From: Actinomycetes bacterium | Lineage (GTDB): Bacteria; Actinomycetota; Actinomycetes; Actinomycetales; Dermatophilaceae | DNA length: 64,000 nucleotides | Direction of reading: 5' to 3' | NCBI GenBank assembly: GCA_029552065.1 | Contig: JAKPEG010000021.1 | Span: 1-64,000 of the forward strand | Shown: in pieces, positions 9,825 to 52,199 of the stretch | Layout of the letters: each line of letters starts with the position of its first letter | Numbering within the stretch: the stretch's first letter is position 1 | Position numbers and translations under genes: made by a program | The notes under the pieces: generated by a model | Seen by the model: the letters and a program-made list of their open reading frames with translations, nothing else | Databases searched by the model: none | Told to the model about the DNA's origin: nothing

Positions 9825-10575
9825 GACCGAGCGTCCGCAGCGCGGCGGCGATCGCGCGGTCGCAATGGGCGACCGTCTCGCGGACCCGCTCCGGTGCGGG
9901 ATCCCGAGGCAGGTCCACGCAGAGGGCGGCCAGCGGCGAGCCGCTCGGGTCGACGACGGCGACGGCGACCTCGGTACCTGCACCCAGGTAGTCAGCGGAG
10001 ACCGTGATGACCTCGGCCTTCGACCACGCCTCACGCTCGCTCTCGGCGAGCGCACGCAGTTCCTCGTCGGCCTCGGCCATTACCAGCTTCCAGAGTTCGT
10101 CATCGCCACGGGCAGCGAGTGCCCTGCCACCGGCGGTGGACAGCGCCGGCCGGACACCGGCGACCTCCCGATAGAGCCCGACCTCCGGTCCGGAGACCCG
10201 ATCGCCGTCGACGACCTGGGTGCCGACGAGCAGTTCGACGCGGACGGTGGCTCCGACGGCGTCGCGCAGCTGGGCGAGATAGGGCGCGAGCGCCCCGAGC
10301 ACCGGGAGCCGGGCGAGGTAGCGGTGGGCCAGCCGGACGAGGTGAGCTCCCAGCCCGTAGCGCGAGGACCGAGGGTCCTGCTCGACCAGGCCGGCGAGGA
10401 CGAGCGAACGCAGCAGACGGTGGACCGTGGGCAGGGACAACCCCGACCGGTCCGCGAGGTCGGTGAGCTGTTGGTATGCCGGCCCCTCGGCGAGCAGGTC
10501 GAGCAGGAGGACCGCATTGCGCACCGTGCCGAGGGATCCCGGAGCCTCCTGCAGGGCCTCGCTGAGGGGAGCCAC
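9817..10575 (-). CDS. IclR family transcriptional regulator
   Basis: GTG start; GTVRNAVLLLDLLAEGPAYQQLTDLADRSGLSLPTVHRLLRSLVLAGLVEQDPRSSRYGLG (HTH) plus IclR effector domain. Confidence 0.9.
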   Translation of the reverse strand: MAPLSEALQEAPGSLGTVRNAVLLLDLLAEGPAYQQLTDLADRSGLSLPTVHRLLRSLVLAGLVEQDPRSSRYGLGAHLVRLAHRYLARLPVLGALAPYLAQLRDAVGATVRVELLVGTQVVDGDRVSGPEVGLYREVAGVRPALSTAGGRALAARGDDELWKLVMAEADEELRALAESEREAWSKAEVITVSADYLGAGTEVAVAVVDPSGSPLAALCVDLPRDPAPERVRETVAHCDRAIAAALRTLGHG

Positions 10576-10621
10576 TCCACCGCTCCTTCGCGTCGGCCGA
10601 ATGGGGCCTTCACTGTAAGCC

Positions 10622-10660
10622 GGTGCGTTTTCCTTCCACAAGAAGCCGTTGCGTTTCCGG
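10622..10660. promoter_or_regulatory. Candidate operator in the iclR/livG divergent region
   Basis: Direct repeat GGTGCGTTTTCC ... GTTGCGTTTCCGG (26-bp spacing), flanked by TTCACT (10609-10614) and AGTGAA (10663-10668). Confidence 0.35.
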
Positions 10661-10719
10661 ATAGTGAAAACATATGCTGCGTCACATCCGTTCCGTCGAG
10701 GTCGACGCGAGGAGTAGCC

Positions 10720-11568
10720 GTGCGCAGCCGGGCCTACGAGCACACGCTCAACTCCTCCGCCGTTCCGGTCGGGCACCCCGTTCTGCAGATCCGCGACGTC
10801 GAACTGCGCTTCGGCGGCGTCGTGGCCCTGCACGACGTGGGATTCGAGGTCACCCAGGGGCACATCCACTCGGTCATCGGACCCAACGGCGCAGGCAAGT
10901 CGAGTCTGCTCAACTGCGTGAGCGGCCTCTACCACCCGCAGCGCGGTTCGATCCGCCTCCATACCGGTGGCACCGGGTCGGTGGAAGCCACCCACGAGCT
11001 CACCGCGCTGCCCCCCTACCGGATCGCCCGGCTCGGCGTCGCGCGCTCGTTCCAGAACATCGAGTTGTTCTCCCAACTCACCGTGCTCGAGAACCTCATG
11101 CTCGGGCGGCATACCCGGATGCGCCACGGCGTGCTGTCCTCGCTCGTGTGGTTCGGTCCGGCCAGGGCGCAAGAGATCGCCAACCGGGGGATCGTCGAGG
11201 AGGTCATCGACCTGCTCTCCCTCCAGCCGTTCCGCCACCTGCCGGTCGGGGCCCTCGCCTACGGCATCCAGAAGCGGGTCGAACTCGGTCGCGCCCTGTG
11301 TCTGCAGCCCTCGCTGCTGCTCCTCGACGAGCCGATGGCGGGCATGAACTCCGAGGAAAAGGAGGACATGGCCCGCTACATCCTCGACGTGCACGAGCTC
11401 GCCGGGGTCACCGTCATCCTCATCGAGCACGACATGGCCGTCGTCATGGACATCTCCGACCGGGTGTCGGTTCTCGACTTCGGCCGCCTCATCGCCGACG
11501 GTACGCCGGATGAGGTGAAGGTCAACCCGGCCGTCGTCGAGGCCTACCTCGGGGCGGAGGACCTCTGA
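10720..11568 (+). CDS. livG: Branched-chain amino acid type ABC transporter ATP-binding protein (LivG-like)
   Basis: GPNGAGKSSLLNCVSGLYHPQRG ... GIQKRVELGRALCLQPSLLLLDEPMAGMNSEEKEDMARYILDVHE; GTG start after a purine-rich RBS. Confidence 0.9.
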   Translation: MRSRAYEHTLNSSAVPVGHPVLQIRDVELRFGGVVALHDVGFEVTQGHIHSVIGPNGAGKSSLLNCVSGLYHPQRGSIRLHTGGTGSVEATHELTALPPYRIARLGVARSFQNIELFSQLTVLENLMLGRHTRMRHGVLSSLVWFGPARAQEIANRGIVEEVIDLLSLQPFRHLPVGALAYGIQKRVELGRALCLQPSLLLLDEPMAGMNSEEKEDMARYILDVHELAGVTVILIEHDMAVVMDISDRVSVLDFGRLIADGTPDEVKVNPAVVEAYLGAEDL

Positions 11569-13610
11569 TGACCGAGCACGCGGGCACAGCACCCACGACG
11601 ACCTTCCCCCGCCTGTTGCAGGGGCTGGCGGCCACCCGGCCCGAGCAGACCGCCCTCCAGGAGAAGCGTTACGGCATCTGGCAACCGATGAGTTGGCAGG
11701 TCTACGCCGCCCGGGTCGCCGACTTCGCCCACGGTCTGGCCGCGCTCGGAGTCGGGCGTGGCGAGGTCGTCGCGGTCCTCGGCGACAACCGGCCCGAATG
11801 GCTCATCGCCGAACTCGCGGCCCAGAGCATCGGTGCGGCCGTCGTCGGGATCTACCCGACGAGCATCGGGGAGGAACTCAGCCACATCCTCACCCTCGCC
11901 CGGGTGAGGGTCGTCGTCGCCGAGGACCAGGAACAGGTCGACAAGCTCATCCGGCTCATCGCGGATCGCGACCAGGGAACCGAGGCTGCGACCGGCGACG
12001 GCTCCGCAAGCGGCGCGGCCGCCCCCGAAGGCCCTCCCCTCCTGCTCGAGACGGTCGTCTACTACGACCCGCACGGCCTCGAGCAGTACACCGAGTCCTA
12101 TCTGCGCGACTTCACTGCCGTCGAGGCCCTGGGCCGTGACTGGGGTGCCGAACATCCGGGCTGGCTCGACGAACAGGTCGCGCAGGGCTCGAGCGAGGAC
12201 GTCGCGGTCATCTGCACGACCTCGGGCACGACGAGCCGGCCGAAGCTCGCCGAGCTGTCCCACGCCAACCTGCTCGCCATGGCCGAGCACCTCACGGCGA
12301 TCGACCCGATCGACGGGAAGGACCGCTACGTGTCCTTCCTGCCCTTCGCGTGGATCGGCGAACAGATGCTCGCGGTCGCGTGCGGGCTGTCCAGGGGACT
12401 CACCTTGAGCTTTCCCGAGGATTCGGCGACCCAGAAGGCCGACATGCGCGAGATCGGCCCGGACGTGATGTTCTCGCCGCCGCGAATCTGGGAGGGGATG
12501 CTCTCCGAGGTCCAGGTACGCATCGACGAGGCCGGTCGACTCAAGCGGGCGGTCTTCGGCTGGGGCTATGCGATCGGCGACAAGGTCGCCGAGCGGCGCA
12601 TCCACGGCAAGGGGGCCGGCGCGCTCGCCCCGGTCCACTGGTTGGCCGACCAGGTCGCCCTGCGCCCGGTGCGCGACCAGTTGGGCCTCGCCCGCAACGG
12701 GCACGCCTACACCGGAGGCGCCCCTCTCGGCCCGGACGTCTTCCGGTTCTTCCACGCGATCGGGGTCAACCTCAAGCAGATCTACGGCCAGACCGAGATC
12801 TGCGGCATCGCCGTCGTCCACCGCGACGACGACATCGCCTTCCACACCGTCGGCACCCCGATCGCCGGCACGGAGATCCGGATCGACGACAACGGCGAGA
12901 TCCTCCTGCGATCCGCCTCGGTCTTCCAGGGCTACCACCGCAACCCCGAGGCGAGCGCCGAGGCCGTCGACTCCGAGGGGTGGCTGCACACGGGCGACGC
13001 CGGCTATCTCGACGAGCGAGGTCACCTGGTCGTCATCGACCGACAGAAGGACGTCCTCACGACGGCCGACGGCACCCGCTTCTCCTCGGCGTTCATCGAG
13101 AACAAGCTCAAGTTCAGCCCCTACATCGAGGAGGCGGTCACCTTCCCGCCAGAGGAGGGCGGTCAGGGGATGACCGCGATCGTGACGATCGACCCGCTCA
13201 CGACCGGCTCCTGGGCCGAGCACGAGCGACTCTCCTACACGACCTACACCGACCTCGCCGGCAAGCACGAGGTGCAGGACCTCGTCGCCGAGGAGATCAC
13301 CCGGGCCAACGAGGACCTTCCCGAGAGCATTCGGATCACCCGATTCGTGTTGTTGCACAAGCAGTTCGACCCCGACGACGACGAGATCACCCGCACCCGC
13401 AAGGTGCGCCGCAATGTCATCCAGACACGGTATGCCGCGATCATCGACGCGCTGGCCCGCGGCGACGAGCGCGTCGGGATCACGACGACGGTGACCTACC
13501 AGGACGGCACGACGATCGAACGCACCATCGACCTACGGATCGTCGACCTCACGACCTTCCGCGTCCCCGAGGGACGCGGCCGACGCCCGGTGTGGAGTGG
13601 TCGCCGATGA
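11568..13610 (+). CDS. Long-chain-type acyl-CoA synthetase / AMP-binding protein embedded in the liv operon
   Basis: MTEHAGTAPTTTFPRLLQGLAATRPEQTALQEKRYG...TTSGTTSRPKLAELSHANLL...YGQTEICG...LHTGDAGYLDERGHLVVIDRQKD; 1-bp overlap with livG and ATGA overlap with livH. Confidence 0.9.
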   Translation: MTEHAGTAPTTTFPRLLQGLAATRPEQTALQEKRYGIWQPMSWQVYAARVADFAHGLAALGVGRGEVVAVLGDNRPEWLIAELAAQSIGAAVVGIYPTSIGEELSHILTLARVRVVVAEDQEQVDKLIRLIADRDQGTEAATGDGSASGAAAPEGPPLLLETVVYYDPHGLEQYTESYLRDFTAVEALGRDWGAEHPGWLDEQVAQGSSEDVAVICTTSGTTSRPKLAELSHANLLAMAEHLTAIDPIDGKDRYVSFLPFAWIGEQMLAVACGLSRGLTLSFPEDSATQKADMREIGPDVMFSPPRIWEGMLSEVQVRIDEAGRLKRAVFGWGYAIGDKVAERRIHGKGAGALAPVHWLADQVALRPVRDQLGLARNGHAYTGGAPLGPDVFRFFHAIGVNLKQIYGQTEICGIAVVHRDDDIAFHTVGTPIAGTEIRIDDNGEILLRSASVFQGYHRNPEASAEAVDSEGWLHTGDAGYLDERGHLVVIDRQKDVLTTADGTRFSSAFIENKLKFSPYIEEAVTFPPEEGGQGMTAIVTIDPLTTGSWAEHERLSYTTYTDLAGKHEVQDLVAEEITRANEDLPESIRITRFVLLHKQFDPDDDEITRTRKVRRNVIQTRYAAIIDALARGDERVGITTTVTYQDGTTIERTIDLRIVDLTTFRVPEGRGRRPVWSGRR

Positions 13611-14488
13611 ACGAGTTCGCCCGCTTCGTCTCCCTCACCGTCTACGGCCTCGCCGACGGCGCGATCCTCGCGTTGGCCGCCCTCGGCTTCGTCCTCATCT
13701 ACAAGGCGACCCGGGTGATCAACTTCGCCCAGGGCGAGTTCCTCCTCGTCGGCGCCTATACCTTCTACACGGCCTTCGTCCTGCTGCGCCTGCCGCTCGT
13801 CCTCGCCGTGCTCGTCGGAGTCGCCTTCGCGATCCTGCTCGGTGTGCTCGTCGAACGCTTCGTCCTGCGACCGCTCGTCGGCGAGCACGCGATCAGCGTG
13901 ATCATGGTGACGATCGGGCTGTCCTCGGTCCTCAAGGCCGGCGTCCAGATGTTCTTCGGCACGGCGGTGCGCGAACAGCCCAAGATCCTCCCGACCGGGA
14001 GCATGGAAGTCGCCGGCGTCACGGTGCCGGTCAACCGGCTCCTGGTCATCCTCATCGCTGCCATCGTCCTGGCCGCCTTCACGGTCTTCTTCCGCAGGTC
14101 CCGTCACGGCGTTGCCATGCGCGCCGTCGCCGACGACCAGCAGGCCTCGCTCACCATGGGCATCTCGGTGCGCACGATCTTCGCCCTCGCCTGGGCGTTG
14201 GCCGCCGTGAGTGCCCTCATCGCCGGCGTCCTGCTCGCCGACCTGTCGGCGGTCGATCAGAACATCGCCTCGTTCGGCCTCATCGTCTTCCCGGTCGTCA
14301 TCCTCGGCGGGCTCGACTCGGTGCCCGGCACCATCGTCGGCGGTCTCACCATCGGACTGCTCAAGCAATACGTCTCCGGCTATGCAGATCCCGGCCTCGC
14401 CGAGGTCGTCCCCTACGTCGTCCTCGTGGCGATCCTCATGGTGCGCCCCTATGGCATCTTCGGCGAGACGCGGATCGAGAGGGTCTGA
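13607..14488 (+). CDS. livH: Branched-chain amino acid ABC transporter permease (LivH-like)
   Basis: MNEFARFVSLTVYGLADGAILALAALGFVLIYKATRVINFAQGEFLLVGAY. Confidence 0.93.
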   Translation: MNEFARFVSLTVYGLADGAILALAALGFVLIYKATRVINFAQGEFLLVGAYTFYTAFVLLRLPLVLAVLVGVAFAILLGVLVERFVLRPLVGEHAISVIMVTIGLSSVLKAGVQMFFGTAVREQPKILPTGSMEVAGVTVPVNRLLVILIAAIVLAAFTVFFRRSRHGVAMRAVADDQQASLTMGISVRTIFALAWALAAVSALIAGVLLADLSAVDQNIASFGLIVFPVVILGGLDSVPGTIVGGLTIGLLKQYVSGYADPGLAEVVPYVVLVAILMVRPYGIFGETRIERV

Positions 14489-14490
14489 CG

Positions 14491-15537
14491 ATGGCGACCG
14501 CGACCGGCATACATCATCGCTCATATCGCGCGGAGTTGCGCCTGCGGCATACCAAGGCCGAGTGGTTCCGTTTCGGCCTGGTCGTCGTGCTCCTGCTCGT
14601 CGTGCCCTACCTGCTCAACACCTATTGGCTGGGCATCGCCAACTCGATCCTCATCGCGGTGGTCGGCGCGGTCGGCCTCAACATCCTGGTCGGCTTCACC
14701 GGCCAGATCTCCCTCGGCCAGGGCGGCTTCCTCGCCGTGGGCGCCTACACCTCGGCGATCCTGTCCACCCGGGCGGGACTGCCCGTGCCGCTCGCGGTCG
14801 TCGTCGCCGTGCTCGTCACGGCCGGGGTCGGGGCGCTCTTCGGCCTGCCCGCCCTGCGCCTCAAGGGGCTCTATCTCGCGATCGCGACGCTCGCCTCGCA
14901 GGAGATCATCATGTTCGTCGTCCGACGGTGGGGCTTTCTCACCGAGGACCGCGGATACATCGAGGTCCCCCGGCTGGGCTTCATCGAGCGGGAGACCTTC
15001 GAGGTGCAGTGGTATTGGGTGCTCCTGCCGATCACCTTCCTCGCCGTGCTCATGGCCCGCAACCTCTTCCGCACCGCCCTCGGCCGCTCGTTCATGGCCG
15101 TGCGGGACCAGGACATCGCCGCCGAGGCCATCGGCGTCAACATCACCCGGACCAAGGTCACCGCCTTCGCCGTCTCGAGCGGCTTCGTCGGGCTCTCCGG
15201 CGCGCTCTCGGCCTACTACACCGAGACCGTGACCTGGGAACGGTTCACCCTCGACGTCTCCGTCCTCTATCTCGCGATGATCATCGTCGGCGGCCTGGGC
15301 AGCATCGCCGGCTCGGTCTACGGCGCGATCTTCATGATGCTGCTGCCCGCTCTGCTCACCGAGGTCGGCGACAAGGTGCGCGACGGTGCGCCGTTCATCG
15401 CCGAGCAACTACCCGCCATCAAGAACGCCGTCTTCGGCATCGCCATCATCACCTTCCTGCTCATCGAACCGCGCGGCCTCGATCGGATCTGGTCGCGCAT
15501 GAAGGACTACGTCCGCTTCTGGCCGTTCCGCTACTGA
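14491..15537 (+). CDS. livM: Branched-chain amino acid ABC transporter permease (LivM-like)
   Basis: LNILVGFTGQISLGQGGFLAVGAYTSAILSTRAGLPVPLAVV...GRSFMAVRDQDIAAEAIGVNITRTKVTAFAVSSGF. Confidence 0.93.
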   Translation: MATATGIHHRSYRAELRLRHTKAEWFRFGLVVVLLLVVPYLLNTYWLGIANSILIAVVGAVGLNILVGFTGQISLGQGGFLAVGAYTSAILSTRAGLPVPLAVVVAVLVTAGVGALFGLPALRLKGLYLAIATLASQEIIMFVVRRWGFLTEDRGYIEVPRLGFIERETFEVQWYWVLLPITFLAVLMARNLFRTALGRSFMAVRDQDIAAEAIGVNITRTKVTAFAVSSGFVGLSGALSAYYTETVTWERFTLDVSVLYLAMIIVGGLGSIAGSVYGAIFMMLLPALLTEVGDKVRDGAPFIAEQLPAIKNAVFGIAIITFLLIEPRGLDRIWSRMKDYVRFWPFRY

Positions 15538-15538
15538 C

Positions 15539-15575
15539 GGTATGCCGGGTGGTCGCCACGGCCACGCGGCATACC
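15539..15575. repeat. Inverted pair of the GTATGCC motif (intergenic hairpin)
   Basis: GGTATGCCG (15539-15547) and CGGCATACC (15567-15575), a perfect 9-bp dyad immediately after the livM stop. Confidence 0.8.
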
Positions 15576-15656
15576 CCTTCCCCCTCCGTCCCTCCGAGAG
15601 CCGCCCACCGGCATACGCAGTGCACCCGCAGGATCCCGGCAAGAACTGGAGTCTCC

Positions 15657-16853
15657 ATGACACACCTCACCCGGCGCGTTCTCCTCGCCGCCACCACCTC
15701 GCTCGTGCTCGGACTCACCGCATGTGGCGGGGGCGGCAGCAGCAGCAGCTCGGACACCACCCCGATCAAGGTCGGCATCATCGCCGACCTCACGGGTGCG
15801 ACCGGCGACGTCGGCAAGCCCTACCACGAGGGCATGCTCGGTTACATCGACTGGCTCAACGCCAAGGGCGGCATCAAGGGCCACAAGATCGAGGCGATGG
15901 CCAACGACTACGCCTACCAGGTCCCCAAGGCCGAGGAGCTCTACAAGAAGTACGTCACCGACGGGGCAGTCGTCATCCAGGGCTGGGGCACCGGCGACTC
16001 CGAGGCCCTGCGCACGAAGGTGGCCTCGGACAAGCTGCCGTTCATGAGCGCCTCCTACGCCGAGGTGCTCACCGACCCCAAGCAGTCGGCCTACAACTTC
16101 GTCGTCGCCCCGACCTACTCCGACCAGATGCGTGTCGCGCTCAACTGGATCGCCAAGGACGCCGGCGCTCAGGCCGAGGTGGCGGTCTTCCACAACGACA
16201 GCCCCTTCGGCACCGCACCGGTCGCCGACGGACAGAAGTGGATCACCGAGAAGGGTCTCAAGCTCGGTTACAAGGCCTACCCCATGCCCAAGACCCCCAA
16301 CTTCGTCGGACTGCTCTCGCAGGCCCAGTCGCAGGGTGCGAAGTACATCGTCATCCAGAACGTGTCCTCCCCCGCCGCGCAGGTGGCCAAGGACATCAAG
16401 GCGCAGAACCTCGGGATGAAGATCGTCTGCCTCAACTGGTGCGCGGACGAGCTGTTCGTCAAGACGGCCGGAGCAGAGAACGCCGAGGGCCACGTGATGC
16501 TCCAGCCGTTCGCCCCGGCCTCGGCCGGCAAGGAGGGCAACAAGGTCATCGACGACTACCTCAAGACCAAGAGCTCCACGCTCGACGCCAAGGGCCTGCA
16601 CTACGCCCAGGGCTGGTACACGATGGACGTCATGGCCAAGGGCATCGAGAAGGTGCTCGCCGGTGGCGGCAAGCTCACCGGTGAGGCGATCCGGTCCGCC
16701 CTCGAGACGATGGACGCGGTCGACACCGGCGGTGTCGTCGGCACCGGCAAGGTGAAGTTCTCGGCGGACTCCCACCGTGGCTCCACCGGCACGGGCATCT
16801 ACCAGGTCAAGAACGGCAAGTTCGTCGAGATCGCAGCCAACCAGGTCCCGTGA
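15657..16853 (+). CDS. livK: Branched-chain amino acid type ABC transporter substrate-binding lipoprotein
   Basis: MTHLTRRVLLAATTSLVLGLTACGGGG lipobox, then PIKVGIIADLTGATGDVGKPYHEGMLGYIDWLNAKGGIKGHKIE. Confidence 0.92.
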   Translation: MTHLTRRVLLAATTSLVLGLTACGGGGSSSSSDTTPIKVGIIADLTGATGDVGKPYHEGMLGYIDWLNAKGGIKGHKIEAMANDYAYQVPKAEELYKKYVTDGAVVIQGWGTGDSEALRTKVASDKLPFMSASYAEVLTDPKQSAYNFVVAPTYSDQMRVALNWIAKDAGAQAEVAVFHNDSPFGTAPVADGQKWITEKGLKLGYKAYPMPKTPNFVGLLSQAQSQGAKYIVIQNVSSPAAQVAKDIKAQNLGMKIVCLNWCADELFVKTAGAENAEGHVMLQPFAPASAGKEGNKVIDDYLKTKSSTLDAKGLHYAQGWYTMDVMAKGIEKVLAGGGKLTGEAIRSALETMDAVDTGGVVGTGKVKFSADSHRGSTGTGIYQVKNGKFVEIAANQVP

Positions 16854-16860
16854 CGGTGCC

Positions 16861-17709
16861 ATGACCGGCACGACGACGTCTGCGGGGGTGGCCGGAGCAC
16901 CGGCCACCCCCGAGGGGGGCGAGCTGCTCACCCTCAACAACATCGAAGTCATCTACGACGACGTCATCCTCGTCCTGCGAGGACTGTCGCTGCGGGTCCC
17001 CGAGGGCAAGGTCGTCGCTCTCTTGGGCTCCAACGGCGCCGGCAAGTCGACGACCCTCAAGGCGATCTCCGGCCTGTTGCCCACCGAGCACGGCGAGGTG
17101 ACCGACGGCTCGATCGTCTTCGGCGGCAAGGACGTCACGCACCTCGACGCCGCCGCTCGGGTCAAGCTCGGCCTCTCGCTGTGCATGGAGGGCCGGCACG
17201 TCTTCGAGCACCTCACGGTCGCGGAGAACCTCGTCGCCGGTGCCTACTTCCGCGGCGGCGCCGATCCTCGCGACCTCGCGACCGTCTACCACCTGCTGCC
17301 CAAGCTCAAGGACATGACCAACCGGGTGGCCGGCTACCTGTCCGGTGGCGAACAGCAGATGCTCGCGATCGGGCGGGCCCTCATGGGAAAACCGAAGCTG
17401 CTCATGCTCGACGAACCCTCACTGGGGTTGGCACCCCTGCTCGTCAAGGACATCTTCGGGTTCATCAAGCAGATCAACGAGGAGCTGGGACTCACCGTCC
17501 TGGTCATCGAGCAGAACGCCAGGCGCGCGCTCGAGGTCGCCGACCACGGCTACATCATGGAGCAGGGCCGGATCGTGCTCGAAGGTTCGGCGGCCGAACT
17601 GCGGGAGAACCCCGACGTCAAGGAGTTCTATCTCGGACTCGGCGACTCGGGGAGCCGCAAGAGCTTCCGCGAGGTCAAGCACTACAAGCGCCGCAAGCGC
17701 TGGCTCTGA
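16861..17709 (+). CDS. livF: Branched-chain amino acid type ABC transporter ATP-binding protein (LivF-like)
   Basis: GSNGAGKSTTLKAISGLLPTEHGEVTDGSIVFGGKDVT ... YLSGGEQQMLAIGRALMGKPKLLMLDEPSLGLAPLLVKDIFGFIKQI. Confidence 0.93.
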   Translation: MTGTTTSAGVAGAPATPEGGELLTLNNIEVIYDDVILVLRGLSLRVPEGKVVALLGSNGAGKSTTLKAISGLLPTEHGEVTDGSIVFGGKDVTHLDAAARVKLGLSLCMEGRHVFEHLTVAENLVAGAYFRGGADPRDLATVYHLLPKLKDMTNRVAGYLSGGEQQMLAIGRALMGKPKLLMLDEPSLGLAPLLVKDIFGFIKQINEELGLTVLVIEQNARRALEVADHGYIMEQGRIVLEGSAAELRENPDVKEFYLGLGDSGSRKSFREVKHYKRRKRWL

Positions 17710-43340: not shown

Positions 43341-44333
43341 TCAACGGGGCCGCGAAAGTCCGCTTCGCGCGTGCCGAGACTCGAGCGCGTCTTCGAAGCG
43401 CGTGGGGGCGCCGGGCGGCCGGGCACCCGAGGCGACGAACGACGCCACCTGGGTCGAGGTGAAGTGCGAGGCAAGGGCCGCCAGATTCGGGTCTGTCGCG
43501 CCGACGATCTGCCGGAAGCGCAGCTCTGCCACCGGGCCGAGCAGGTCGTGGATCTCGATGAAGCAGCGCCGGGCTCGTTCGCGCGGCCAGCCCTCGGGCA
43601 GCAGCTCGGCAGGCAAATCGGGGTCGATCTCGGGGAAGTCGCGCCAGTCGCTGCGCAGGGCAGTGCGAAGCGCCAGGGCGTCCGCCGGGCTCACGTCCCC
43701 GGCCCGGATCCGGTCCAACAGCGGTTCGTAGCGCTCGGCGAACTCCCGGTAACGCGTGGCAAGTTCGTGCAGGTCGAAGGCACTGGCCAGCGGCACGAGG
43801 CGCGATCCCGTGATTGGCTCGCGCACACGGAGGACGGTCGCCGTGCTGACTCCCAGCCGTTCCAGCAGTGCGCAGGCGGCCGACACCCGGTCATGCGGCG
43901 TGACCCACAGGCCGTCGTAGAGCACCCCGAACTGCAGCGCCCGGAGCCCGGCGCGAAGGGATGCACGGACTTCGCGATCGCCCTCGGGCACCGAGAACGC
44001 GACCGTCGTCCATTGCCCGTCCCACGGCTCGTTCGCGCCCCCGAAGAAGAGCATGCGGTGGATCCGGCGCATGACGAACTCCGAGGTGCGTTCGGGGATT
44101 GCGTATGCCGTCGTGCGCCCCGTGCGGCGCAGCCGGAGCAGACCTCGGGCCGTGAGCCGTCGGATAGCGGCACGGGCACCGTCCTCCGAGATGTCGAACT
44201 CAGCCAGCAGCCGCACCAGCGTCGCCGAGGGGATGTGTTCGTCGCGCAGGTACCAATAGTCGCCGAGCACGGTGGTGAGCAGCCGCTGGGGCTCCGGCCC
44301 GGTCTGTGCCCGCGGCAGATCGATTGTCGTCAT
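43341..44333 (-). CDS. PaaX family transcriptional regulator
   Basis: LLTTVLGDYWYLRDEHIPSATLVRLLAEFDISEDGARAAIRRLTARGLLRLRRTGRTTAYAI...DGQWTTVAFSVPEGDREVRASLRAGLRALQFGVLYDGLWVTP. Confidence 0.88.
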   Translation of the reverse strand: MTTIDLPRAQTGPEPQRLLTTVLGDYWYLRDEHIPSATLVRLLAEFDISEDGARAAIRRLTARGLLRLRRTGRTTAYAIPERTSEFVMRRIHRMLFFGGANEPWDGQWTTVAFSVPEGDREVRASLRAGLRALQFGVLYDGLWVTPHDRVSAACALLERLGVSTATVLRVREPITGSRLVPLASAFDLHELATRYREFAERYEPLLDRIRAGDVSPADALALRTALRSDWRDFPEIDPDLPAELLPEGWPRERARRCFIEIHDLLGPVAELRFRQIVGATDPNLAALASHFTSTQVASFVASGARPPGAPTRFEDALESRHARSGLSRPR

Positions 44334-44466
44334 CGCCGGCACTGGTCGACACACCTCATGCCGCACATCGTAGACGTGCCTCCGCGGGCGGCCGCGCATT
44401 GATCTCGCGCGACGTCACGGATCACGTCTGCTTTGGAGCGAGTTCCGGCGCAACGCTTGCCAACAT

Positions 44467-44544: not shown

Positions 44545-45465
44545 ATGACCATGACACGAAGGCTGAACGTGGCGGCCGTGTCCGCGACTGCCGCGGCAGC
44601 CCTGCTGTTGGCAGGCTGCTCGTCCGGGCCGACCTCGTCGACTGGCGCCACGTCCGGAGGGTCTGCTGCCACCGCCAACACGGTGCTGCACGACGCCCTC
44701 CCGCAGGCCATCAAGGACGCGGGAGTCATCACCTTCGCAGGCGACTCCCACCCGCCCTACCGCACGGTGGAAGCCGACGGAAGGATCACCGGCATCGACC
44801 CCGACATCCAGGAAGCCCTCGCGCGGATCCTGGGAGTCAAGGCCAAGACCGAGACGGTCGCCAGCCTGCCCGCGGCCTTGCAGGGCATGCTCTCCGGTCG
44901 CTACGACGCCTTCAACGGTCCCGTGAAGGCCACCGCCGAGCGCGAGAAGGACTTCGACTCGATCACGTGGATGACCACGCGCACGGCATACATCGTCCCC
45001 AAGGCGACGGGCGCGGGGGTGGCGGCCACGGACGACCTGTGCGGGAAGACGGTCGCCGTCGTCACGGCGAGCATCGTCGAGGAACAGCTGAAGAAGCTGT
45101 CCGCCTACTGCGAGGGCAAGGGTGCCTCGGCAATCCAGGTGCTCGGATTGGCCGACACCAACTCGACCCTGTTGGCGGCGAACGCCGGACGCGCGGCAGC
45201 GGCCGGGATGACCGAGGCGGCGGCGATCGACGTCCGCAGCAAGGAGCCGGACAAGTACCTCTACGTGCGCCAGACCGAAGCCCAGGGCGCGACCACGGAC
45301 AACCTGGCGACACTCGTGCCCAAGAGCAGCGGCCTCGGACCGGTGCTCATGAAGGCCTTCCAGGAGTTGTTCGCCAACGGCGACTACCGGCGAATCATGG
45401 AGAAATACCACATCGAGGGTGTCGCCGTTCCGGCTCCTATCCTCAACGTCGCGTCGAAGGGATGA
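44545..45465 (+). CDS. Amino-acid type ABC transporter substrate-binding lipoprotein
   Basis: AAALLLAGCSSGPTSS lipobox; AGVITFAGDSHPPYRTVEADGRITGIDPDIQEALARILGVKAKTE. Confidence 0.9.
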   Translation: MTMTRRLNVAAVSATAAAALLLAGCSSGPTSSTGATSGGSAATANTVLHDALPQAIKDAGVITFAGDSHPPYRTVEADGRITGIDPDIQEALARILGVKAKTETVASLPAALQGMLSGRYDAFNGPVKATAEREKDFDSITWMTTRTAYIVPKATGAGVAATDDLCGKTVAVVTASIVEEQLKKLSAYCEGKGASAIQVLGLADTNSTLLAANAGRAAAAGMTEAAAIDVRSKEPDKYLYVRQTEAQGATTDNLATLVPKSSGLGPVLMKAFQELFANGDYRRIMEKYHIEGVAVPAPILNVASKG

Positions 45466-46439
45466 GCACCTCCGCAGCCGGCGCGCCGCTCCCGCCCCCG
45501 GCGTCCCTCGCGGCGTCGTCGTCGCGCGCGGCCCCGCCGGAGGACATCGCCACAGCCGGCCGACGCCTGCGCCCCATGCACTGGCTGGTCACCCTCCTGC
45601 TCCTGCTCGTGGCCGCCCAGATCGCCTGGTTCCTGTGGACCAACCCTCGGTTCGAGTGGAAGGTCGTCGCGCAGTACCTGTTCGAGCCGACGATCCTCAA
45701 AGGACTGGGGACGACTCTCTTGCTGGCGCTGGCCGCGATGGTCGGTGGCTCGGTGGCGGGAGGCCTCCTCGCGGCGGCACGGATGAGTGAGCTGCTCCCC
45801 GCCCGCTGGGCGGCCACGACCTTCGTGGCCGTCTTCCGGGGCATCCCGCCGCTGGTCCAGCTGATCTTCTGGTTCAACCTGGCCTACCTCGTCCCGCGGC
45901 TGTCCCTGGGGATCCCCTTCGGACCCTCGTTCGGCGACTGGTCGACCAATGCCGTGATCACGCCGGTCACCGCCGCGATCGTGGGGCTCACCCTCGTGGA
46001 GTCGGCCTACATGGCCGAGATCATCCGCGCCGGCGTGCTGTCGGTCGACATCGGCCAACGCGAGGCGTCCAAGGCGATGGGCTTCACCGCCGGTCAGAAC
46101 TTCTTCCGGATCGTGCTGCCCCAGGCCATGCGGGTGATCATCCCGCCGTCCGGGAGCCAGTTCATCAGCGTCGTCAAGGGGACGGCACTGGTGAGCGTGA
46201 TCGGGATGAGTGACCTGCTCTACTCGGTGCAGGTCATCTACAACCGCACCTACCAGATCATCCCCATGCTCATCGTGGCCTGCCTCTGGTACCTCCTCGT
46301 CGTCACCCTGCTGAGCATGGGCCAGTCGCGGCTCGAGCGACGGTTCTCCCGGGGCCATTCCCGCCACGCACCCGAACGCCGAAGCCGGCTGTTCGCGGCT
46401 ACTCGACGACCGCCCCGAAAGGGTAAGGAACAGCCATGA
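45462..46439 (+). CDS. Amino-acid type ABC transporter permease (HisM/GlnP-like)
   Basis: LLALAAMVGGSVAGGLLAAARMSELL...FRGIPPLVQLIFWFNLAYLVP...YMAEIIRAGVLSVDIGQREASKAMGF. Confidence 0.92.
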   Translation: MSTSAAGAPLPPPASLAASSSRAAPPEDIATAGRRLRPMHWLVTLLLLLVAAQIAWFLWTNPRFEWKVVAQYLFEPTILKGLGTTLLLALAAMVGGSVAGGLLAAARMSELLPARWAATTFVAVFRGIPPLVQLIFWFNLAYLVPRLSLGIPFGPSFGDWSTNAVITPVTAAIVGLTLVESAYMAEIIRAGVLSVDIGQREASKAMGFTAGQNFFRIVLPQAMRVIIPPSGSQFISVVKGTALVSVIGMSDLLYSVQVIYNRTYQIIPMLIVACLWYLLVVTLLSMGQSRLERRFSRGHSRHAPERRSRLFAATRRPPRKGKEQP

Positions 46440-47302
46440 CCGACTCTCGATCCGCCGGTACACCCGGGGGCGACGGGGCCGCCGAGGCCGCACTCTCGGG
46501 CTCCGAATCGGGCCCCGTGGTCCTTTCCCTGCACGACGTCCGAAAAGCCTTCGGCGATCATCAGGCTCTCGACGAGGTCAGCCTCGATGTGCACGAGGGT
46601 GAAGTGGTCGTCGTCATCGGCCCGTCCGGTTCGGGCAAGTCCACCCTCGTCCGCTGCGTGCACCAGCTCGAGCAGATCGACGGCGGCTCCATCCATCTCG
46701 ACGGGGAGCTCCTTGGCTACGAGCACCACGGCAACGGACTCCGGCCGCTCAGCGAGCGGGAGATCGCCAGCCAACGTCGCCGAATGGGAATGGTCTTCCA
46801 GAACTTCAACCTCTTCCCGCACTTCACAGTCCTTCGCAACATCGTCGAGGCACCAGTGCACGTGCACGGGATCCCGCGGGCCGAGGCCGTGGAACGGGCG
46901 CGGAACCTGCTGGACCGGGTCGGGTTGAGCGACCAGGCCGGGAAGTACCCGCGGCAACTCTCGGGAGGCCAGCAGCAGCGCGTGGCGATCGCGCGCGCGT
47001 TGGCCCCCGAGCCACGCATCCTCCTGTTCGACGAGCCGACCAGCGCCCTGGACCCCGAACTCGTCGACGAGGTCCTCAGCGTGATGCGCGACCTTGCCGA
47101 CCTCGGCAAGACGATGGTGGTCGTCACCCACGAGATGGCCTTCGCTCGTGAGGTCGCCGACCGCTGCGTCTTCATGGAGGCCGGCCGGATCGTCGAGACG
47201 GGTCCTCCCACGAAGCTCTTCAGCGACCCTTCCTCGCCCCGGCTGCGCGCTTTCCTCTCGCGCTATACCGACGACCGCACCCGCGGGACGGCGACGGCAT
47301 GA
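46436..47302 (+). CDS. Amino-acid type ABC transporter ATP-binding protein (GlnQ-like)
   Basis: VVIGPSGSGKSTLVRCVHQLEQIDGGSIHLDGE...QLSGGQQQRVAIARALAPEPRILLFDEPTSALDPELVDEVL. Confidence 0.94.
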   Translation: MTDSRSAGTPGGDGAAEAALSGSESGPVVLSLHDVRKAFGDHQALDEVSLDVHEGEVVVVIGPSGSGKSTLVRCVHQLEQIDGGSIHLDGELLGYEHHGNGLRPLSEREIASQRRRMGMVFQNFNLFPHFTVLRNIVEAPVHVHGIPRAEAVERARNLLDRVGLSDQAGKYPRQLSGGQQQRVAIARALAPEPRILLFDEPTSALDPELVDEVLSVMRDLADLGKTMVVVTHEMAFAREVADRCVFMEAGRIVETGPPTKLFSDPSSPRLRAFLSRYTDDRTRGTATA

Positions 47303-48531
47303 ACGGTGAGCTGACCATGCTCTCGGTCGGGGACATCATCCTCGACGAGCCGGATCCCGGTTCCTTCCTCGAACCGGCCGCCCCCGTGCTGCACGCCGCC
47401 GACCTCGTCGTCGGCCACGTCGAGGTACCGCACACCGACACCACCGCGTCGACGAGCACTGACGTTCCGGCGCCACCGGCGGACCCGCGGGCGCTCGCGG
47501 CCCTCAGCAGAGCCGGCTTCGACATCGTCACCCTCGCGGGGAACCACATCTACGACTCCGGCGATGCCGGTGTGCTCGACACGGTGCGACACGCGCGTGC
47601 CGCCGGGTTGCAGACGGCCGGCGCGGGAGCCAACCTCTCCGCGGCTCGCCGACCGGCCGTCGTGGAACGGGACGGCATCCGGGTAGGGGTGCTGAGCTTC
47701 AACTGTGTCGGCCCCCGCGAATCCTGGGCGACTTCGGCGAAGGCCGGTTGCGCCTACGTCCACATCCTCACTCACTACGAGCTCGACCACGCCAGCCCGG
47801 GAGGTCCACCGCGCATCTACACGTTCGCCGATCCCGACAGCCTCGACCGGATGGCCGAGGACGTCGCAACCCTAGGGGAGCACGTCGACATCGTGGCCGT
47901 GTCCTTCCACAAGGGGGTCGGCCACACCCCGGTGACCGTTGCGATGTACGAGCGTCAGGTGGCCCGTGCCGCCATCGACGCCGGAGCGCACGTCGTCGTC
48001 GGCCATCACGCCCACATCATGCGCGGCGTCGAGGTCTACCGTGGGCGACCCATCTACCACGGCCTGGGCAACTTCGTCACGGTCACCCATGCGCTCACGC
48101 CGAGCGACTCGAGCGCCGGGGAGCTGGCCGTGTGGGCGCGCCGCCGGGTTGCCCTCTACGGCTTCGCGCCGGACCCTGCCATGCCCTTCTATCCCTTCCA
48201 TCCGCAGAGTCGCAACACCGCTGTCGCCAGCGTCCGGGTCGACCGAGGGGGAGTGGTCGAGGCCGGGCTGGTCCCGTGCTGGATCGACGCTTCGGGTCGC
48301 CCACAGCCCCTCACGAGGGACGCGACGGGAGAGGCCGTCGTCGCCTACATCCAACAGATCTCGACCGAGGCTGGTTTCGACACGGTGCTGCAGTGGAGCG
48401 GCGACCACGTGCGCATCGAGGGGGTCGGACCTGCGGCCGACTCCGCCGCGCCCCGCCCCTCCCCCGCGCCCGAGCCCTGGGACGGCCACAACGCCACCAC
48501 CGCCCACGAGTTGACTGGAGACACCCCATGA
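47299..48531 (+). CDS. CapA family (PGA biosynthesis-type) metallophosphatase-like protein
   Basis: LTMLSVGDIILDEPDPGSFLEP...VTLAGNHIYDSGDAGVLDTVRHARAAGLQTAGAGANL...VSFHKGVGHTPVTVAMYERQVARAAIDAGAHVVVGHHAHIMRGVEVYRGRPIYHGLGNFV; no signal or TM segment at the N-terminus. Confidence 0.87.
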   Translation: MNGELTMLSVGDIILDEPDPGSFLEPAAPVLHAADLVVGHVEVPHTDTTASTSTDVPAPPADPRALAALSRAGFDIVTLAGNHIYDSGDAGVLDTVRHARAAGLQTAGAGANLSAARRPAVVERDGIRVGVLSFNCVGPRESWATSAKAGCAYVHILTHYELDHASPGGPPRIYTFADPDSLDRMAEDVATLGEHVDIVAVSFHKGVGHTPVTVAMYERQVARAAIDAGAHVVVGHHAHIMRGVEVYRGRPIYHGLGNFVTVTHALTPSDSSAGELAVWARRRVALYGFAPDPAMPFYPFHPQSRNTAVASVRVDRGGVVEAGLVPCWIDASGRPQPLTRDATGEAVVAYIQQISTEAGFDTVLQWSGDHVRIEGVGPAADSAAPRPSPAPEPWDGHNATTAHELTGDTP

Positions 48532-49760
48532 CCACCTCGCCACTGGCCGGCGCCGTCGTCCTCGACCTCACCACCGCGTTGGCCGGCCCCTATGCGACCC
48601 TCCTGCTGGCCGGATTGGGTGCCCGCGTCATCAAGGTCGAGAACCCGGCCACCGGTGGCGACTCCGCCCGCAACAACGCTCCGTACGCCGGCCGCGACGG
48701 GCTCACCCTCGGGCGCCGCCATGCGGACGACATGTCCGTGTCCATGCTCGTGCGGGGGCGCAACAAGGAGAGCATCACCCTCAACCTCAAGGATCCGCGG
48801 TCCCGCTCGGTGTTCCTCGACCTGGTGGCGCGCGCCGACGTGCTCGTCGAGAACTACAGCGCCGGGGTCACCACCCGCCTGGGCATCGACTATGCCTCCA
48901 TCCGCGAGCACAACCCGCGGCTCGTCTACACCTCGATCAGTGGCTTCGGCGCCCAAGGCGGGCCTGGTTCGGGCAAGGCGATGGACTCGATCATCCAAGC
49001 GCTCAGTGGCGTGATGATGACAGCCGGCGAGCCCGACGAGGGCCCCGTGCGATTCGGCCTGCCGATCGGCGACCTGCTCGCCCCCCTGTATGCCGTCATC
49101 GGCACCGTCTCGGCGCTGCTCCAGGCCGAGCGCACCGGGGTCGGCCAACACGTCGACGTGTCCATGCTCGGGGCACTGACCTCGCTCATGGCGTGCGAGC
49201 CGTTCGACGCCTACGACGCGGTCGGGCTTCCGCAGCGAACCGGCTCGATGGTCCCGCGTCTGGCACCCTTCGGGATCTTCGAGGCTGCAGACGGGCACGT
49301 GGCCCTGTGCGCTCCCACAGACCCGTTCGCCCGCGGGGTGTTCCGCGCGATGGGCCGCGAGGAGCTCCTCGGCAGCTACGCCACGAGGGACGCCCGGGTC
49401 GCCAACGCGGACGAGGTCCACGGTCTCATCGGCGCCTGGATGAAGGAACTGACGGTGGACGAGATCCTCGATCGGTTGGTGCGCGAAGGCGTTCCGGCGG
49501 CGAAGGTGCGCGACCCTCACGAGGCGGTCCACGATCCACTGGTTCGCGAGCGAGGCGAGGTGGTCACGCTCCGTCACCGCACCTATGGGGACGTCGCCGA
49601 CCTGTCCGGCACCGGGATGCCCATCCTGTTCTCGGGGGCGGATGTCGGCTTCGACGAACCGCCGCCAGATCTCGGGGAACACAACCACCGGGTCTACGGC
49701 GGTCTGCTGGGCTACTCCGACCAGGACGTCGCGCGCCTGGCCGAGCAGTCGGTCATCTGA
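48528..49760 (+). CDS. CaiB/BaiF (class III) CoA-transferase
   Basis: LAGAVVLDLTTALAGPYATLLLAGLGARVIKVENPATGGDSAR...NKESITLNLKDPRSRSVFLDLVARADVLVENYSAGVTTRLGIDYASI. Confidence 0.94.
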   Translation: MTTSPLAGAVVLDLTTALAGPYATLLLAGLGARVIKVENPATGGDSARNNAPYAGRDGLTLGRRHADDMSVSMLVRGRNKESITLNLKDPRSRSVFLDLVARADVLVENYSAGVTTRLGIDYASIREHNPRLVYTSISGFGAQGGPGSGKAMDSIIQALSGVMMTAGEPDEGPVRFGLPIGDLLAPLYAVIGTVSALLQAERTGVGQHVDVSMLGALTSLMACEPFDAYDAVGLPQRTGSMVPRLAPFGIFEAADGHVALCAPTDPFARGVFRAMGREELLGSYATRDARVANADEVHGLIGAWMKELTVDEILDRLVREGVPAAKVRDPHEAVHDPLVRERGEVVTLRHRTYGDVADLSGTGMPILFSGADVGFDEPPPDLGEHNHRVYGGLLGYSDQDVARLAEQSVI

Positions 49761-49776: not shown

Positions 49777-50913
49777 ATGCCGCCTTCCGCCCTGGACCGA
49801 CTCGAGCTCATCTACCGAAGCGGGCCGTCGACCGCGATCCGCAGCGGCGCGGGTTCGGCTCCCGTGGTGGGCTATGTGGGGGCCGACGTCCCGGTCGAGC
49901 TTCTCGACGCCGCCGGGGTCTTCGGAGTCCGACTCGCCGGCGACCCGACGGCCGACCGATCCCGGGGCGACCGTCTCCTCGGTCGCGGCCTCGACCCGGC
50001 CACCCGATCGCTCATGAGCCAACTGGTCTCCGGGCAGTTCGACGGGCTGGACGCGCTCGTCGTCTCCCGGGACTGCGAGGCCTCCCTGCGACTGTTCTAT
50101 GCCGTCCGGGAACTGCGCCGTGTCGACCCCGGCTGCGGCCTGCCTCCGGTGCATCTGCTCGACCTGTTGCACCTGCCCTACCGGACGACGACGACCTACA
50201 ACCTCGCGCGGCTCACCGGGCTACGGGATTGGTTGCGGGCCTGGACCGGCAATCCGGTCACCGACGACGACCTCGCCCGGAGCGTGCTGGCCCATGGGGA
50301 GGTCCGGGAGCAGCAGCGCCGCGTCGCCGCCTATCGTCGTGGCCCCCAGGCCCGGCTGACTGGAACTCAGGCGCTGGCCGTGGTGGGTGCTGGCACGCGG
50401 ACGCCGTTGGCGGCATACCGGAGTCTGTTGGGCGACCTCCTCAGCCAACTGGAGCAGGGGTCCAGGCCGCCGATCGGCGGAGTGGCGACCTTCCTCACGG
50501 GCAGTTCCCACGACAACCCGCACGTGTATGCCGCACTCGAAGCCCAGGGTGTGCGCATCGTGGGCGAGGATCACGACTGGGGGGACCTCTTGATCGACCG
50601 CCAGGTCGATCGGCCCACGCTGTTGGGCCTCGCGGAGACCTATCAGCACCAGACGCCCACAGCCCAGCGGGGGTCGATCCGTGACCGCGGTGTCCAGACC
50701 GCCGTCGGTCTCGACCGCTCCGGAGCCCAGCTGCTCGTCGGCTACCTCCGAGAGTGCGACGAAGGGCCGCCCTGGGACTGGCCGGAGCAGAGTCGCCTCG
50801 CGACCCAACGAGGTGTCGACACGATCCTGTTGGCGCACCAGGGCTACGGCGCGGTCGACATCGACACGCTCGGCACGACCGTGGCCCTTTCGACGAGCGG
50901 AGGGACACGATGA
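49777..50913 (+). CDS. 2-hydroxyacyl-CoA dehydratase / benzoyl-CoA reductase (HGD-D) family-like protein, subunit 1
   Basis: Architecture like HgdB/FldC: FDGLDALVVSRDCEASLRLFYAVRELRR ... LGDLLSQLEQGSRPPIGGVATFLTGSSHDNPHVYAALEAQGVRIVGEDHDWGD ... ECDEGPPWDWPEQSRLATQRGVDTILL. Confidence 0.65.
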   Translation: MPPSALDRLELIYRSGPSTAIRSGAGSAPVVGYVGADVPVELLDAAGVFGVRLAGDPTADRSRGDRLLGRGLDPATRSLMSQLVSGQFDGLDALVVSRDCEASLRLFYAVRELRRVDPGCGLPPVHLLDLLHLPYRTTTTYNLARLTGLRDWLRAWTGNPVTDDDLARSVLAHGEVREQQRRVAAYRRGPQARLTGTQALAVVGAGTRTPLAAYRSLLGDLLSQLEQGSRPPIGGVATFLTGSSHDNPHVYAALEAQGVRIVGEDHDWGDLLIDRQVDRPTLLGLAETYQHQTPTAQRGSIRDRGVQTAVGLDRSGAQLLVGYLRECDEGPPWDWPEQSRLATQRGVDTILLAHQGYGAVDIDTLGTTVALSTSGGTR

Positions 50914-52199
50914 CGCAGCCGCCCGGGACACGCGGGCCCACGACCGGCCAGACCCTGCCGTCGGCAGTCACCGCGAAGCGCTTTCAACGCGCGTGGTTCG
51001 CCGAGGTGAGGGCGCAGGCGGCCTCCGGCACGCCCATCGCACTCGTCAACGCCGACGCGCCGCAGGAAGTGTTCCGGGCGATGGGCATTCCATATGTCGT
51101 CAATCAGTGGTGGGCATCCATCGTCGCCGCAAAGCGGCGCTCGGCGGACTACCTCGAGTTGCTGCGGGCCCAGGGACTTCCCGACTACACCGACCAGTAC
51201 AGCTCACTGTCGTTGGCCTCGGCCTTCGACACCGACGAGGCGAACGCACCGTGGGGTGGGCTGCCTACTCCTCGCATCGTCCTCGCGGAGGTCACCGGCG
51301 ATGCCTCCCGCAAGATCTTCGACGTCTGGGGGCAACGGCCCGGCGTCGACTTCTACGCCCTGGAGTCCAGCGCCGCCAACGAGGTGCAGCCCCGGTGGTG
51401 GGAGCGGATGCCGTGGGACTGGGAGGAGCTCATCGGCAAGGACCGGATCGACCTGTTGGCCGGTGAGTTGCAGGGGCTTATCCGATTTCTCGAGACGACC
51501 ACCGGGAGGGTCTTCAGCGAATCACGGTTCCGCGAGGTGATGGCGTTGGTCAACGAGCAGGAGGAATGGAACCGGCGCACCCGGGACCTCATCGCAGCGA
51601 GCACCCCTTGCCCGATCAGCGTCGTGGACAGCATCCCGGCGGTGATGGTGCCCCAGTGGCATCGCGGGACCGAGTGGGCCCGCGATGCGGCGATCACCCT
51701 GCACGACGAGGTCGCCGCCCTCGTCGCCGAAGGCGCGGCCGTCTGCCCGGACGAGCGGGTCCGGCTGATGTGGATCGGTCGCGGCCTCTGGATGGATATG
51801 GGCTTCTACCGCCACTTCCAGGACACCTACGGCGCCGTCTTCGTGTGGTCGATGTATCTCGCCATCGCCGCGGACGGCTATCTGCGCTACGGCGAGGACC
51901 CGGTGCGGGCCCTGGCTGCCCGCTTCGCCGCCTTCAGCGACCAGCTCTACGCCCCTCCGTGGTCGGCCGAGTGGTATGTCAAGGAGGCGCTGTCTCATCG
52001 GGTCGACGGCGTGGTGCATCTGGTGTCCGACGACCCCCGCGGCAGCTACTTCACGACCCGCGCGCTGCGCGCGGCCGGCGTACCGGTCCTCGAGCTGCGG
52101 GCCGACAACGTGGACAGCCGCGCCTATGACGGCGCGACGACCCAGGACATCGTGAGCCGGTGGCTCGAGGAGGAGATCCTGCACTCGCCGCCTGCTTGA
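50910..52199 (+). CDS. 2-hydroxyacyl-CoA dehydratase / benzoyl-CoA reductase (HGD-D) family-like protein, subunit 2
   Basis: GTPIALVNADAPQEVFRAMGIPYVVNQWWASIVAAKRRSADYLELLRAQGLPDYTDQYSSLSLA ... HRVDGVVHLVSDDPRGSYFTTRALRAAGVPVLELRADNVDSRAYDGATTQDIVSRWLEE. Confidence 0.7.
   Translation: MTQPPGTRGPTTGQTLPSAVTAKRFQRAWFAEVRAQAASGTPIALVNADAPQEVFRAMGIPYVVNQWWASIVAAKRRSADYLELLRAQGLPDYTDQYSSLSLASAFDTDEANAPWGGLPTPRIVLAEVTGDASRKIFDVWGQRPGVDFYALESSAANEVQPRWWERMPWDWEELIGKDRIDLLAGELQGLIRFLETTTGRVFSESRFREVMALVNEQEEWNRRTRDLIAASTPCPISVVDSIPAVMVPQWHRGTEWARDAAITLHDEVAALVAEGAAVCPDERVRLMWIGRGLWMDMGFYRHFQDTYGAVFVWSMYLAIAADGYLRYGEDPVRALAARFAAFSDQLYAPPWSAEWYVKEALSHRVDGVVHLVSDDPRGSYFTTRALRAAGVPVLELRADNVDSRAYDGATTQDIVSRWLEEEILHSPPA

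Follow-up and report, generated by a model that had tools for sequence, protein, structure and literature searches.

What defines the enzymes of the BCR/HAD family is radical chemistry at [4Fe-4S] clusters, which an ATP-driven activator feeds; most of the characterised members are oxygen-sensitive. In their canonical mechanism, the cluster sits on three cysteines and a glutamate lies beside its free iron site. The window, by which we mean the whole 64,000-nucleotide stretch of an actinomycete contig that was analysed, carries two adjoining genes for paired HGD-D subunits, and a sequence-only reading of it had proposed a non-canonical or cluster-less member of the family. The locus raises the question of whether such a pair has given up the cluster and, if it has, what kind of reaction it might carry out. 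In the open-access text searched, neither a paper on members of this kind nor a characterised one was found.

A pair of HGD-D subunits

The ATG of the large-subunit gene overlaps the stop codon of the small-subunit gene by 4 bases, so the start at 50910 given in the earlier reading was right. Both products scored above the curated cut-off (28.4 bits) of the HGD-D superfamily profile, Pfam PF06050 (Table 1). For the NCBIfam equivalogs (HadB, BzdO, BzdN, BcrC and double-cubane), both subunits were far under every cut-off.

AlphaFold models, each made for a single subunit, were of good quality (pTM 0.88 for the large and 0.89 for the small subunit; pLDDT in Table 1). In Foldseek searches, the large subunit matched HadB, MbdO and BzdO, and the small subunit matched BzdN and HadC, with a TM of about 0.83. 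Sequence searches of the PDB with the family profiles gave MbdO (99.7 bits), BzdO (92.1 bits) and HadB (75.4 bits) for the large subunit and BzdN (112.7 bits), HadC and MbdN for the small one. Each subunit thus matched its counterpart; the large subunit is of the catalytic type.

Table 1. Features of the operon and codons at the former cluster and catalytic positions (positions in the window).
Feature	Position	Strand	Evidence
PaaX-type transcriptional regulator, divergent from operon	43341..44399	-	Pfam PaaX, PaaX_M, PaaX_C; TIGR02277 131.6 bits; homologue at 55/80 loci
Solute-binding protein SBP_bac_3 (polar-amino-acid ABC importer type)	44545..45465	+	Pfam 63.4 bits; 55/80 loci
ABC importer permease (start approximate)	45459..46439	+	Pfam BPD_transp_1; 55/80 loci
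ABC importer ATPase	46436..47302	+	Pfam ABC_tran; 55/80 loci
CapA/PGA_cap calcineurin-like metallo-hydrolase-fold protein	47299..48531	+	Pfam PGA_cap 191.5 bits; 68/80 loci
Family III CoA-transferase, catalytic-type Asp210 in HVDVSM	48528..49760	+	Pfam CoA_transf_3 357.8 bits; 78/80 loci
Small HGD-D subunit (HadC/BzdN-like), 378 aa; ligand columns D73, C100, D328	49777..50913	+	Pfam HGD-D 88.9 bits; AlphaFold pLDDT 91.1; TM 0.84 to BzdN
D73 codon, HadC C72 / BzdN C73 ligand column	49993..49995	+	Cys 54/54 canonical, Asp 77/77 in this group
C100 codon, HadC C99 / BzdN C100 ligand column; sole ligand kept	50074..50076	+	Cys 66/77, Ser/Thr/Asn 11/77
D328 codon, HadC C325 / BzdN C327 ligand column	50758..50760	+	Cys 54/54 canonical; Asp 76/76 aligned rows and 7/7 distant members
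Large HGD-D subunit (HadB/BzdO-like), 429 aa	50910..52199	+	Pfam HGD-D 132.6 bits; AlphaFold pLDDT 87.5; TM 0.82/0.88, 2.6 Å to HadB 3o3m_A
Q66 codon, in place of catalytic Glu (BzdO E65)	51105..51107	+	Glu 26/26 canonical, Gln 80/80 actinobacterial; E65 role from PMC11971306
D95 codon, ligand column 1 (HadB C84, BzdO C95)	51192..51194	+	alignment
G130 codon, ligand column 2 (HadB C117, BzdO C128)	51297..51299	+	alignment
P376 codon, ligand column 3 (HadB C346, BzdO C380)	52035..52037	+	alignment

Loss of the cluster ligands and the catalytic glutamate from the large subunit

The cluster of BzdO has Cys95, Cys128 and Cys380 as ligands and water or hydroxide as the fourth (PMC11971306). When the subunits were aligned jointly in MAFFT with HadB, HadC, BzdN and canonical members, and by HMM with PDB chains, D95, G130 and P376 of the large subunit fell at these positions. 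They lie in exactly the three segments that the earlier reading had listed as lacking Cys. In the window protein and its homologues at 79 further loci (actinobacterial or close relatives, with the Chloroflexi MAG locus L083 set apart), none of the 80 sequences had Cys at any of the three columns, which mostly read E-G-A or E-G-P; all 26 canonical sequences had C-C-C.

Only two cysteines are present in the large subunit, C234 (STPCPIS) and C279 (AAVCPDE), and both are outside the ligand columns, as had been noted before. The earlier reading had allowed that these two, with a third, might still ligate a cluster. The sequences do not place them so, because C234 was kept in only 45 and C279 in only 62 of 81 homologues, and two of the 81 had no Cys at all. 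Relocation of the ligands to other cysteines of the large subunit was likewise rejected, since no Cys is invariant there. The ligand pattern suggests that the protein carries no cluster.

The column of the catalytic glutamate (BzdO E65) had Gln in every one of the 80 large subunits versus Glu in the canonical ones (Table 1). Tyr97 and Tyr316, aligned with the Tyr97 and Tyr298 that in BzdO make hydrogen bonds to the thioester oxygen (PMC11971306), were conserved in all 80. At pocket positions, assigned by alignment to published structures, new invariant residues were found (N47, A48, D49, W67, W68, W250, H251 and W313). In total, 112 positions were at least 97% conserved across the 81 homologues, and many of them belong to the pocket-lining segments N47-D49, Q66-S70, Q249-G253 and F311-Y316.

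The small subunit and a possible metal site

BzdN binds its double cubane through Cys36, Cys73, Cys100, Cys263, Cys293 and Cys327 (PMC11971306). The small subunit of the window keeps one of the three proximal-cluster cysteines, C100, and has D73 and D328 in place of the other two. The earlier reading was thus correct on the large subunit but understated the loss, as the partner is also without two of three ligands. Of the two cysteines that it had seen kept in the partner, C100 (SRDCEAS) is indeed in a ligand column, but C327 (LRECDEG) lies one residue before the column now occupied by D328.

These replacements bring up the main rival explanation, a non-classical metal centre (a mononuclear or dinuclear site, or a mixed Asp/Cys cluster) that would act as a Lewis acid in the old cluster pocket of the small subunit, using D73, C100, D328 and the nearby D267 and H266. 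The two Cys ligands were replaced by invariant Asp, not by varied residues; D328, W333 and D129 are retained even in distant members, and D267 stands in for a double-cubane Cys in most members. However, 11 of the 77 small subunits have Ser, Thr or Asn instead of C100, distant members have other residues there, and D73 is not kept beyond the actinobacterial group. Conserved Arg residues, R52 and R325, also occupy former cluster positions, and the Asp residues may be mere salt bridges replacing the cluster. Moreover, the ligands would be in the non-catalytic subunit. We consider such a centre unlikely.

Absence of the activator

The activator profile TIGR00241 had no match over its cut-off in 46 of 50 host genomes, including the window's own. 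In the latter, it had 0 matches and PF01869 had one sub-threshold match, and a hidden activator elsewhere in that genome was rejected on these grounds. The absence from this draft genome alone is weak evidence because the draft is 88% complete; the absence from 46 of 50 is not weak. In the four exceptions (L120-L123), the activator adjoins a separate, canonical C-C-C large subunit. The window's genome had no HGD-D proteins other than this pair.

The two kinds of HGD-D protein, canonical and non-canonical, coexist in one genome in Amycolatopsis acidicola, A. acididurans and Rhodococcus jostii (L121, L122 and L123). A conjugative plasmid of Rhizobium leguminosarum (L089, 7833-13261) carries a canonical C-C-C pair with two acyl-CoA dehydratase activases, near two rhodanese genes.

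The fold and the paired-subunit layout are those of ordinary 2-hydroxyacyl-CoA dehydratases and benzoyl-CoA reductases. It is very improbable, however, that the pair is such an enzyme, with its ligands moved to other cysteines and its activator encoded elsewhere: the large subunits share no invariant Cys and two have none, the catalytic Glu is lost, and 46 of the 50 genomes gave no activator.

Gene neighbourhood

The operon runs in the order SBP_bac_3, permease, ATPase, CapA, family III CoA-transferase, small subunit and large subunit, with the PaaX-type regulator divergent. Promoter and terminator scans found nothing. Among the 80 loci, the CoA-transferase was present at 78, the small subunit at 77, the CapA protein at 68 and the complete importer set at 55. 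The CoA-transferase has an invariant D210; its nearest NCBIfam family is succinyl-CoA:mesaconate CoA-transferase, with a score far under the cut-off. The CapA/PGA_cap protein has a fully conserved metal site (D12, N82, H83, D86, H204, H237 and H239, all invariant) in an operon of a catabolic type.

The importers vary between loci (SBP_bac_3, SBP_bac_5, TRAP, branched-chain type ABC and MFS). Esterase-type accessory hydrolases recur and are also varied (CocE/PepX, DUF6351, PETase-like and Abhydrolase_10). At a Rhizobium plasmid locus, MmgE/PrpD and enolase-superfamily genes accompany two CoA-transferases. Because importers and hydrolases differ between loci, no single substrate follows from them, and naming the substrate from the neighbours was rejected.

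The stable company of the CoA-transferase bears on another explanation, in which the pair is a catalytically dead scaffold, or a carrier or sensor of a CoA thioester, that holds the product of the CoA-transferase or regulates the operon. All the known catalytic parts, the three ligands and Glu65, are lost, as this explanation would have it. The picture looks more like that of an enzyme, however, given the stable CoA-transferase neighbour and the strongly conserved positions of the large subunit, many of them in the pocket-lining segments. We regard this explanation as distinctly unlikely.

Distribution and selection

A genome scan gave 80 loci with 54-75% identity, nearly all in Actinobacteria plus Chloroflexi MAGs. 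The host genera were Amycolatopsis, Pseudonocardia, Streptomyces, Nonomuraea, Actinomadura, Nocardia, Rhodococcus, Nocardioides and Geodermatophilus. Streptomyces, Amycolatopsis and Nocardia are typically aerobic. With 6 of 346 genomes of the class and none of 7 other genomes of the family carrying it, the gene is rare and patchily distributed, a pattern expected of an accessory catabolic island. A Chloroflexi contig (L154 in genome G506, 7515-17042) bears two HGD-D pairs of the clusterless type, separate from each other, along with CapA, a P450, two CoA-transferases and two SBP_bac_5 proteins.

For eleven gene pairs, dN/dS of the large subunit was 0.06-0.23, which indicates purifying selection and therefore argues against decay. 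A decaying gene, a sequencing error or a mis-assembly in one draft genome might be suspected because the window's genome is fragmented (239 contigs). The chance of this is negligible, as about 80 separate genomes share these substitutions and the operon is intact; decay and error were refuted by these homologues under purifying selection. Judged from the aligned proteins, ligand loss is a family trait, not a quirk of one genome.

Trees and order of ligand loss

Trees were built with the ligand columns left out, by quick searches and with SH-aLRT values, not bootstraps, as support. The non-canonical large subunits formed a single clade (SH-aLRT 99) on a stem of 1.74 changes per site, and the non-canonical small subunits also formed a single clade (SH-aLRT 99). 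The family tree suggested in the earlier reading, as a way to see whether Cys loss defines a clade, therefore gives one clade of all non-canonical members for both subunits.

Members outside the Actinobacteria differ in their ligand columns. The large subunits on sphingomonad plasmids (L085-L087) retain Cys in the first two columns (CCN) and that of the Chloroflexi MAG locus L083 reads CCV, while a Rhizobium plasmid copy (L088) and the two Chloroflexi copies of L154 have no ligand Cys. In the simplest reading of these columns, loss of the third ligand would have come first, and that of the remaining two would have followed on two or three occasions. The inner order is uncertain, as several branches are long. 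The two Cys kept in these relatives count against the clusterless reading, and some kind of metal site may thus have persisted in the family.

The diverged small HGD-D subunits of the sphingomonads (L085, 5970-6851; L086, 6991-7869; L087, 7000-7887) are annotated as hypothetical proteins of about 294 amino acids and have also lost C100. They match the small-subunit profile with an E-value of about 1e-18 or better, and they directly precede a 700-aa CoA-transferase. In the MAG contig L083 (7195-9216), the small subunit is represented by its C-terminal part alone, behind a hydrolase fragment; this layout is probably an assembly chimera or a deletion.

A proposed non-radical reaction

The pair keeps the fold and the residues holding the CoA substrate but has lost the catalytic glutamate, the activator and the ligands of the iron-sulfur cluster, and it probably does a different, non-radical reaction. 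Its substrate would be an acyl-CoA. Its most likely working mode, we infer, is polar chemistry on a CoA thioester supplied by the neighbouring CoA-transferase. We consider it fairly probable that the heterodimer is an oxygen-tolerant enzyme that transforms acyl-CoA by acid-base chemistry and has given up the [4Fe-4S] radical machinery. Points for a clusterless acyl-CoA enzyme are the ligand loss, the change of Glu to Gln, the missing activator, the tyrosines, the CoA-transferase, importer and CapA neighbours, dN/dS, the fold and the aerobic-type hosts. Against it are the activator in 4 of 50 hosts, there beside a separate canonical large subunit, and the varying neighbouring enzymes, which do not pin down the pathway.

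In such a pathway, the ABC system would take up a small organic acid, the CapA protein might trim or epimerise it, and the family III CoA-transferase would load it with CoA. The large subunit may then take the thioester into the ancestral CoA channel, where Tyr97 and Tyr316 would hold its carbonyl. The rebuilt pocket (N47, D49, Q66, W67/W68, W250/H251/R252 and W313) might carry out a non-redox step: an elimination, a hydration, an isomerisation or a C-C cleavage. The PaaX-type protein would be a repressor that senses a CoA thioester.

A wider proposal, more tentative, is that a clade of the mostly anaerobic superfamily of radical 2-hydroxyacyl-CoA dehydratases and benzoyl-CoA reductases turned into an acyl-CoA enzyme that tolerates oxygen, carries no Fe-S cluster and catalyses a new reaction. 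The clade may have lost its ligands stepwise, the third Cys before the other two, with the CoA channel kept, and may have spread in aerobic Actinobacteria and some Proteobacteria within a catabolic operon. That a coherent clade under selection is without ligands, catalytic Glu and activator shows that radical chemistry does not follow from an HGD-D annotation, often worded '2-hydroxyacyl-CoA dehydratase family protein'; genes in many genomes of aerobes are thus misleadingly named. The sphingomonad and Chloroflexi members with two of three Cys are intermediates for following the loss of a metallocluster from an enzyme.

Comparison with known systems

We place the pair in the HGD-D superfamily but outside the BCR/HAD radical enzymes (HadBC, HgdAB, BcrBC and BzdNO), because it has the fold, the pairing and the thioester tyrosines but lacks the cluster Cys set, the Glu and the activator. 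The proposal of a non-canonical or cluster-less member is supported by ligand loss in every actinobacterial homologue, by the single clade, by Gln for Glu in 80 of 80 and by the absence of the activator from 46 of 50 genomes.

HadBC, the (R)-2-hydroxyisocaproyl-CoA dehydratase of Clostridioides difficile (PDB 3o3m/3o3n), shares the fold of both subunits, their pairing and the Tyr pair at the thioester, and HadB can be aligned over the full length of the large subunit. It differs in that C84/C117/C346 of HadB correspond to D/G/P, and C72/C99/C325 of HadC to D/C/D, in the window pair, which also has Gln for the catalytic Glu and no activator. The class I benzoyl-CoA reductases BzdNO and MbdNO (PDB 8s02, 9g87) were the best profile matches, and Tyr97 and Tyr298 of BzdO are conserved, but the window pair is without the [4Fe-4S] and [8Fe-9S] ligand sets, an equivalent of E65 and a BzdPQ/BcrAD-type ATPase.

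The double-cubane cluster protein DCCP (PDB 6eno) and Escherichia coli YjiM are of the same superfamily and fold (TM about 0.7-0.8). Unlike the window pair, neither has a second subunit, and YjiM keeps the ligand Cys and adjoins an activator-type ATPase, YjiL. The plasmid homologues of the sphingomonads Croceicoccus and Novosphingobium belong to the same clade, with 37-40% identity, CapA and CoA-transferase neighbours and a diverged small subunit. They differ from the window pair in keeping two of the three large-subunit Cys, in a TRAP importer instead of an ABC importer and in a small subunit annotated as hypothetical.
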